NCBI RefSeq assembly: GCF_900605495.1 | Contig: NZ_LR027603.1 | Location: 1,427,997 to 1,491,996 of the forward strand | DNA length: 64,000 nt | Reading direction: 5' to 3' | From: Bacilliculturomica massiliensis | GTDB lineage: Bacteria; Bacillota; Clostridia; Peptostreptococcales; Anaerovoracaceae | In this document: piece after piece, positions 28,134 through 31,419 of the stretch | Layout of the letters: each line of letters opens with the position of its first letter | Position numbering within the stretch: position 1 is the first letter of the stretch | The notes under the pieces: generated by a model | Databases searched by the model: none | Told to the model about the DNA's origin: nothing | Seen by the model: only the letters and a program-made list of their open reading frames with translations | Translations under genes and position numbers: made by a program

Positions 28134-29132
28134 TTATTTCTTCATGTAAGGCGTTCTGCAGGGCGCGTTGTAATATCCCAGCAGCTCGTCGTCCATTCTG
28201 GCCAGGAACATCTGGAACCCGGCCTGTTCCTGAACGGTCAGAAGTTCGCCCACCTCGTTGGCCACGATCTCGATCTTTTTCTCAGCCAGATGTTTTACGC
28301 ACTTTCTGTAGATGATCAGCAGCTCCATGAGGGTGGTGGCGCCGCTGCCGTTGAGGATCAACATGACCCTCTCCCCTTCCCTGATGCCGATGTCGGCCAG
28401 CAGCGCGTCCAGCATCAATACCGCAGTGTCGTCGGCGCTGGCCAGAGGCCGGGCTCCGCCGCCGCCCTCTCCATGCTGGCCCATGCCTACCTCCATGTCG
28501 TTCTCGCCCACCTCGGAAAGGGCTCCGCCCGTGGCGGGATGGGTAGCGCCCCGAACAGCCACCGCCAGCGTGGCCATATTTTCTGCAAAGCGGCTGGCTA
28601 TCTCATAGACTTCGTCCAGATTTTTTCCGGCTCTGGCCGCGGCTGCCGCTATCTTATATGTAGGAATACATCCCACCAGACCCCTTCTGTCGTCCGAGTT
28701 TTCCCTGGGCGCGTTGGATACGTCCTCCTGTGTGACCAGCTTTTTCACATTCATTCCCAGCTTTTTCACCTGCTTCATGGTCAGGTTGGCCGTCAGCATA
28801 TCTCCGGCATGGTTCAGCACTACGAAGAGCACGCCGTGGCCCTTGTCCGCCATCTTCAGCGCTTCCACGCAGGCCTGAGGACCGGGAGCGGCAAATACGT
28901 CGCCTACCACGGAAATATCCACCATGCCTTCTCCCACAAAACCGCTGATGGCCGGTTCGTGTCCGCTTCCGCCCAGAGTCACGATGGTAACGCGGTCCGC
29001 GTCCGCCAGCGCCTTGCTGACTACCAGATTATTCTCCCTGAGTTCGATCAGATCGCTGTTGGCCAGCGCCAGGCCTTCCAGAAGTTCTGACGTGAGATCT
29101 GCCGGATCGTTGATAAACTTCTTCATTTTCAT
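28134..29132 (-). CDS. dhaK: Dihydroxyacetone kinase subunit DhaK-like protein
   Basis: The 332-residue protein carries the DhaK substrate-binding signature LGGSGHEPAISGFVGEGMVD and GDVFAAPGPQACVEAL near the N-terminus, and MGQHGEGGGG around residue 225 where DhaK has its active-site histidine. The C-terminal strand has LNGSGATTLMELLI. DhaK binds the ketose substrate by a hemiaminal to histidine. The glycine-rich GEGGGG segment differs from the usual GEPG motif, which hints at a different ketose or a DhaK paralogue. DhaL follows in the operon, but no PTS subunit DhaM is present. Confidence 0.86.
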   Translation of the reverse strand: MKMKKFINDPADLTSELLEGLALANSDLIELRENNLVVSKALADADRVTIVTLGGSGHEPAISGFVGEGMVDISVVGDVFAAPGPQACVEALKMADKGHGVLFVVLNHAGDMLTANLTMKQVKKLGMNVKKLVTQEDVSNAPRENSDDRRGLVGCIPTYKIAAAAARAGKNLDEVYEIASRFAENMATLAVAVRGATHPATGGALSEVGENDMEVGMGQHGEGGGGARPLASADDTAVLMLDALLADIGIREGERVMLILNGSGATTLMELLIIYRKCVKHLAEKKIEIVANEVGELLTVQEQAGFQMFLARMDDELLGYYNAPCRTPYMKK

Positions 29133-29206
29133 GACAAATTCCTCTCTTTCTGCTGCACGCTTCCCCTGTGAACAGGAAATAATCTTACGCTCGTTTTCTT
29201 TTGGTC

Positions 29207-29821
29207 CTAAACTTCTGAGAGTCCCAGGAAGAAATACTTCATAGAGACCGCTCCCGCGTCCGGAGTCCCGATGGTCTTTTCCTTATAGCTTTTCGCTCTT
29301 CCAAACTTGGATACAAAAGCCTCGCTGGCCTTCGCACCCTGTTCCGCCGCCTCAGCCGCCGCCGCGAACAGCTCGCTTTCGCTTCCCTCTGTCCGCTGCA
29401 TGGCCTCCACCGCCGGGATCAACGTGTCCATCATAGTCTTGTCTCCCACCCGGGCAGTAGAAATATCGTACATCTCCTCAAGGGCTGCCGCAAACATCTT
29501 TTTAACGTCGTCCGCTCCCAGTTCCGCCGTCTCCTCCTCGATGCCCAGAGCCAGACCGCCGATAAAGGTGCCCCACAGCGGGCCCGCCGATCCGCCGTTC
29601 ACGCCCATGATGGCCGCGCCCAGATCGTCCAGCAGCGCGTAGAGATCGTCGCCTTCCTCGTACTCTTCCAGGCTCCCCTTTATCTCTCCGGCAATTTTTC
29701 CGATGGTGATGCCGTGGTCGCCGTCGCCGAACAGGGAATCGATCTCAGTCAGCTCGTCCTTCGCCTCTTCCATCCTCTCCGCAGCCGACAGCAGTCTCTC
29801 TTTGAATTCGCTACCAGTCAT
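29207..29821 (-). CDS. dhaL: Dihydroxyacetone kinase ADP/ATP-binding subunit DhaL
   Basis: The 204-residue all-helical subunit shows the Mg-nucleotide aspartates in SLFGDGDHGITIGK near residue 32, GGSAGPLWGTFIGG near residue 78, GDKTMMDTLIPAVEA near residue 125 and the C-terminal GTPDAGAVSMKYF. It phosphorylates the sugar bound to DhaK. In PTS-type systems ADP stays bound and DhaM recharges it. Without DhaM here, either a distant DhaM or direct ATP use must be assumed. GGAGGCGAT precedes its ATG. First gene of the operon. Confidence 0.92.
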   Translation of the reverse strand: MTGSEFKERLLSAAERMEEAKDELTEIDSLFGDGDHGITIGKIAGEIKGSLEEYEEGDDLYALLDDLGAAIMGVNGGSAGPLWGTFIGGLALGIEEETAELGADDVKKMFAAALEEMYDISTARVGDKTMMDTLIPAVEAMQRTEGSESELFAAAAEAAEQGAKASEAFVSKFGRAKSYKEKTIGTPDAGAVSMKYFFLGLSEV

Positions 29822-30078: not shown

Positions 30079-30128
30079 AGTTACATATGTAACTTTTCAT
30101 CTATTCTATTTACCTCTATGCCGCCCTG

Positions 30129-31257
30129 TCAGCGCTGCGGGAATTCCTCCTTCAGCAGCTCGGCGGCCAGCGTCTCGTTCAATATCAGATCGGTGATCAG
30201 GCCTGTAGCCAGCGCCCCTGCCGCAGCCACGGCTTTGACGCCGCCGGCGCAGAGCGCCGTCACGCTTACCCCGGTCCCCTCCACGAGCTTGTTCCGGTCT
30301 TGCGTGCCAGGAGTCCGGTAGGGAAGAAGGCCCCTGATCCTTATCCAGAGAGGGATGTGTATAAGTGACGGACGCTGCCGCAGCCACGGCTTTGACGCCG
30401 CCGGCGCAGAGCGCCGTCACGCTGCCCGCCGACGCCAGGTCTTCCCTGGAAATACGAAGGATCCGGTCGCTGTCTTCCGGGATAAAGCGCCCTTCCCGAT
30501 CATAAAAGTAAGACAGCATGTGTCCGGCGGCCTTCCGCTCCGACAGCCTGGAACCAAAACGCAGCGCCGTGGCCATATCAGGCGACGAAGGATAGTTGGA
30601 TATATTGATCAGGGCCACGTCCAGACGCCGCCACAGCTGCCTGATCTGGCAGTAGGAATCCGTGTTCTCGTAGATCTTCTTCTCCGCCTCCGACTCCGCG
30701 ATGGCCGGGCCGTAGATGTAGACGGGAGAGAGACCGGTCCTGCCTGAGAGGATGCGGACCAGCTCGTTTGGATGATAGCTGCGGTACGAAGCCGCCGCGT
30801 TGCCGATCAGAGGGCAGATCACACCGGAGAGACCTCTCTCCCCGCCGCTCTCACTCTGCTGCTCCCTGCCTTCCAGATGATCCGCGACGCGTCCGATCAG
30901 CGATCCCCATCCGATCCCCAGACAGCCCGAACCGTTCATTTTCTCCTCCACCAGCTTCCAGGCGGCGGCCACCACGCTCTTGTCCGTCCTGTCCTCGTCG
31001 CTTTCCATGGGAACCACCCGCGCGCACCGCAGACCGTACTTTTCTCTCAGCTGTTCTTCCATGATCTGATGAAAGCTGGTTGCTTCCGTAATGCGGATCG
31101 TGACGATCCCCAGCTCTCTGGCCTCTGCCAGAAGTTTGCTCACCATGGGACGGGAAATGGCAAAATACTTTGCAATATCCGCCTGGGTCTTATTCTCTTC
31201 ATAATACATCCGGCTCGCCCGTACGAGCCTCTTCAACTTTTCTTCGTTACGCCACAT
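30129..31257 (-). pseudogene. SorC-family sugar-binding regulator, reading frame broken by a 157-bp insert
   Basis: The protein starts with a SorC/DeoR helix-turn-helix (KTQADIAKYFAISRPMVSKLL) and continues into the sugar-phosphate-binding domain (GCLGIGWGSLIGRV; RILRISREDLASAG). This is the family of LsrR. Near the C-terminus the frame breaks. A 49-bp segment at 30375-30423 recurs at 30218-30266 with 108 unrelated bases between. Past the insert, the original frame resumes as ALATGLITDLILNETLAAELL and stops at 30129, a normal SorC end. The insert is probably an assembly artefact, so the real gene is likely intact. The ATG at 31257 gives the canonical N-terminus (MWRNEEKLKRL); earlier in-frame ATGs back to 31356 exist. 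Confidence 0.82.
30218..30423. repeat. 49-bp direct repeat flanking an adapter-like 108-bp insert
   Basis: Identical copies lie at 30218-30266 and 30375-30423. The spacer contains, at 30353-30371, a 19-bp stretch that matches the Tn5 mosaic end (as I recall it) at 16 of 19 positions. The rest of the spacer translates as TLTPVPSTSLFRS, a string I associate with library-adapter artefacts in metagenomic proteins. Confidence 0.8.
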
Positions 31258-31419
31258 ACTCTCACGACCGCCGTTATTGCAACTGGCCTTCCTCTCCATG
31301 TCTATATCTACGTCTGTCCGTACTTCAGCCCGCAGCTTCATACGGTTGAATTTCATCTGCTTATACTCATTATTAGTTTAACAATTACGACGCAAAATAG
31401 CAAAGTTTTTTTACATATA

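Follow-up and report, generated by a model that had tools for sequence, protein, structure and literature searches.

In the preparation of Nextera mate-pair libraries, circularisation takes place between tagmentation and the TruSeq ligation. The published chemistry of the kit comprises tagmentation with junction adapters and a later ligation of TruSeq adapters, with a nominal library of 5 kb (PMC6298255), and the same kit has been used on many cultured gut isolates (e.g. PMC9584879). Here we analysed a 64-kb stretch of the Bacilliculturomica massiliensis genome (hereafter, the window), in which a gene of a SorC-type sugar-binding transcriptional regulator contains a 157-bp unit. This unit is almost certainly an assembly artefact that originated from a Nextera mate-pair library read together with its adapters.

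The original prediction described two identical 49-bp copies around 108 bp of foreign-looking sequence, and their coordinates were confirmed: the copies are identical and are bounded by mismatches on either side, they lie 157 bp apart from start to start, and they enclose a 108-bp spacer at 30267-30374 (Table 1). An exact direct repeat of 49 bp at a spacing of 157 bp is far beyond chance. The repeated part comprises just 49 of the 157 bp, the remaining 108 bp not being duplicated, and the spacer as a whole has no second occurrence anywhere in the genome. The fold of the 49-bp repeat showed nothing unusual (z -0.11), and the Rfam search over the whole window gave no match.

Table 1. Features of the 157-bp unit and of the gene containing it (positions in the window).
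Feature	Position	Strand	Remarks
SorC-type sugar-binding transcriptional regulator ORF, as recorded	30106..31356	-	416 aa; C-terminus frameshifted by the 157-bp unit
49-bp direct repeat, copy 1	30218..30266	.	in frame with the true SorC C-terminus (minus strand)
Noisy TruSeq universal (P5) adapter, nt 25-58	30267..30300	+	23/34 identical; source of TLTPVPSTSLFRS
Unplaced 33 nt, predicted to come from the opposite end of the mate-pair fragment	30301..30333	+	
Noisy Nextera mate-pair junction adapter (mosaic end reverse complement + mosaic end)	30334..30371	+	27/38
ACG, linking the junction adapter to copy 2	30372..30374	+	
49-bp direct repeat, copy 2	30375..30423	.	in frame with the upstream SorC ORF body

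The domain search assigned the Sugar-bind domain PF04198 to the SorC-type ORF (E 1.2e-25, 90.6 bits). When compared with its homologs, the ORF departs from the homologous frame at the insert: the frame matched by two of them, L018 and L019, changes from -2 ahead of the insert to -3 behind it, with identities of 43% and 37% in the C-terminal segments. The last ~35 residues of the gene lie beyond the insert in a frame separate from that of the gene body. The homologs from other genomes are intact and comprise 312-317 aa. Since the homologs match the body and the last ~35 residues in differing frames, the insert disrupts a gene that is continuous elsewhere, which agrees with the frame shift initially attributed to the 157-bp unit. 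The genes adjoining the regulator on the minus strand (28134-29821) encode Dak1 and Dak2 domains and likely constitute a dihydroxyacetone or related polyol kinase operon.

The spacer was parsed using the generally known adapter sequences as references, the matches themselves being computed. The 16-of-19 match to the Tn5 mosaic end noticed earlier was found at 30353-30371 (GGATGTGTATAAGTGACGG), and it turned out to be the right half of a 38-bp junction adapter, of which the left half matches at 11 of 19 positions. The complete junction match is likewise far beyond chance: none of 1000 shuffles scored as high, and the second-best position within the window reached 21/38. The original prediction recognised one adapter; a second one begins directly at the end of copy 1 and matches the last 34 nt of the TruSeq universal adapter. 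Its score was reached by only one of the 127,934 34-mers in the window (both strands), that is, by the spacer segment itself. Under free local alignment this match was weaker, as 9 of 1000 shuffles were equally good. The match is supported by a clearer P5 copy elsewhere in the genome (L045): this copy has the same error as the spacer, CCCTCCACG for CCCTACACG, and none of 2000 shuffles matched the L045 adapter as well as the P5 part of the spacer did; set against the P5-like stretches of L041 and L037, this part showed weak similarity. With an identity of 68%, the P5 part of the window site is a weaker point of the mate-pair reading. The peptide TLTPVPSTSLFRS, suspected at the outset to be adapter-derived, is read on the plus strand across the end of the repeat and the spacer (ORF 30118-30321). 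In the frame that yields TLTPVPSTSLFRS, the clean P5 adapter translates to TLFPYTTLFRS, which explains the string pointed out in the original prediction.

The other adapters of the panel (MGI, PacBio, Ion, 454, ONT and TruSeq index) gave nothing above shuffles when compared with the spacer. Comparison of the spacer with phages and plasmids yielded only chance matches of 20-26 bases, and no exact 25-mer from the P5-like part occurred in viral contigs. At C21:572440 (L002), 29 nt of the genome match the spacer; they lie in ordinary sequence that lacks adapter features, and the match was rejected as chance.

A library artefact would be expected to come up repeatedly within one assembly and to be missing from others. 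Similar scars do recur across the assembly (4.5 Mb, 21 contigs), sites being sampled both through searches and in individual stretches. The genome contains 24 mosaic-end matches at ≤3 mismatches compared with 2 for the reversed pattern, and 60 related genomes contain 0-4 each. Together with one full-length TruSeq adapter followed by poly-A, the 24 matches yield 19 distinct sites, the window included; a few of these, single and weak ones, could be chance matches. A composite query of P5 and junction adapter revealed the head-to-head junction at many of the mosaic-end sites and also detected further sites. TruSeq copies clearer than that of the window are present at C19:352452 and C21:424356.

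Several of these sites have features of their own. At C19:352452-352513 (L045:1500-1580), a full-length noisy TruSeq P5 adapter (84%) followed by poly-A lies within a PcrA/UvrD-type helicase gene, where it is in frame and adds a spurious peptide (...DRERGVEGKRGDLGGRRVIKKKKK...). A P5 adapter followed by poly-A would be expected from a read that extends past the end of the library molecule. At C21:424306-424431 (L037:1007-1132), two mosaic ends in the same orientation have a poly-T run between them, together with a noisy P5 adapter. Runs of N are located near two adapter sites (130 bases at L029:825-954 and more than 900 bases at L039:1163-2101) and may be scaffold gaps.

In a circularised fragment, the far end lies directly to the left of the junction and the start of the fragment directly to its right. 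Therefore, pieces on the left-hand side should recur a few kb downstream, and those on the right-hand side upstream, on the same strand. Of the 18 sites outside the window, 10 have such a duplicate directly at the junction (36-127 bp, 80-100% identical to DNA located 3.1-5.6 kb away), and all ten copies are on the same strand and on the predicted side, left pieces downstream and right pieces upstream. For comparison, a same-strand match at 2.5-8 kb, with no condition on direction, was obtained for 10 of 200 random pieces. Two sites share the anatomy of the window scar: C19:178082 (L041) has a 35-bp flanking direct repeat at 147 bp spacing, and C20:436487 (L035) a 21-bp one at 162 bp spacing, each with the junction adapter and mate sequence, from 3.5 kb and 4.3 kb away, respectively. 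The 33-nt piece of the window is short and noisy (probably about one third of its bases are wrong), and its best in-range match of 19/33 was equalled by 96 of 500 shuffles. No placement was obtained for this piece in the predicted zone 3-6 kb downstream, and the mate-pair geometry proposed for the window is one seen at ten of the sister sites.

From these results, the following course of events may be proposed. Fragments of a few kb would have been tagged with mosaic-end adapters and circularised, giving a 38-bp head-to-head junction; shearing and the ligation of TruSeq adapters would have followed. A minus-strand read would start in genuine SorC DNA and cross the 49 bp; next would come the junction adapter, then a short far-end stretch and finally, at the low-quality 3' end of the read, the TruSeq adapter. 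At the window site, the junction half nearest to copy 2 has errors at 3/19 positions, the far half at 8/19 and the P5 part at 11/34; such a rise from the right fits one minus-strand read that enters from the right and decays toward its 3' end. We infer that the adapters were too error-laden for trimming, so that the read was kept, and that it then joined or filled the assembly at a stretch of 76% G+C; bridging of this stretch by the read would explain why the 49 bp are found on both sides. Noisy adapter copies presumably remain since the cleaner ones were trimmed or screened out.

The chimera of library origin suggested in the original prediction is thereby specified, as two adapters are arranged in the order of mate-pair read-through (TruSeq P5, 33 nt, mosaic-end junction) and ~18 further scars accompany them. 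The mosaic end is, as is generally known, common to all Tn5-based kits, which speaks for an adapter artefact from a different kind of library (ordinary Nextera tagmentation, for example, or a linked-read kit). Such an origin is nevertheless very unlikely, given the 38-bp head-to-head junctions at many sites, the outer adapters that are TruSeq rather than Nextera, and the copies displaced by 3.1-5.6 kb, which have the orientation of mate pairs.

The earlier alternatives of a transposon scar or a segmental duplication did not hold. A Tn5/IS50-like element that inserted and left behind an end and a target duplication is suggested by the mosaic-end-like 19-mer adjoining a direct repeat. However, 23 of the 24 genome sites are nearer to the engineered mosaic end than to the natural IS50 outside and inside ends (in their generally known sequences), the window site having 3 mismatches to the former versus 6 and 7 to the latter. 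Moreover, target duplications of IS50 are 9 bp and not 49 bp, the Tn5-type transposase DNA-binding domain (PF14706) is absent from the genome, with E. coli serving as a positive control, and the spacer also holds a TruSeq adapter; we therefore regard this origin as scarcely conceivable. Equally implausible is a genuine tandem segmental duplication of the 157-bp unit, or a phase-variable repeat switching the SorC C-terminus: identical copies do shift the frame, but nothing beyond the 49 bp is repeated, the rest being adapter-like, the same structure occurs with different repeats at other genome sites, and two library adapters and their recurrence would be left unexplained. Nothing supports the reading that the insert is physically present in the DNA of the strain and switches the C-terminus of the regulator, and we consider its likelihood negligible. 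The 157-bp unit is not a biological feature, and the type of library it came from is now identified.

The importance of the mate-pair artefact is limited to data quality. This species-representative genome carries ~19 adapter scars, and at least two protein-coding genes (the SorC regulator and the PcrA/UvrD-type helicase) contain one; frameshifts, short tandem duplications and apparently broken genes in this assembly should be distrusted until checked against reads. Peptides that stem from adapters can pass into protein databases and comparative analyses, as can spurious frameshifts and tandem duplications. Screening for exact matches is insufficient because the adapter copies are too degraded, and a screen for noisy head-to-head mosaic ends with displaced copies 3-6 kb away would detect such scars.

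Compared with the described systems, the regulator resembles other members of the SorC family (PF04198) in its Sugar-bind domain, in the size of its intact homologs and in its position beside Dak1/Dak2, and differs in a C-terminal frame that is broken in this record solely by the artefact. The peptide TLTPVPSTSLFRS is akin to the adapter-derived peptides of the TLFPYTTLFRS type in metagenomic proteins, as it represents an error-containing version of the same adapter in the same frame; the literature search gave no paper that names TLFPYTTLFRS, and the likeness rests on the translated adapter sequence. The adapter copies depart from those of the Nextera mate-pair kit by 16-42% substitutions, depending on the segment. 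Nevertheless, the window shows the 38-bp head-to-head mosaic ends and the TruSeq P5 outer adapter of Nextera mate-pair read-through, and the sister sites show the few-kb mate distance and the same-strand mate orientation of such a library.
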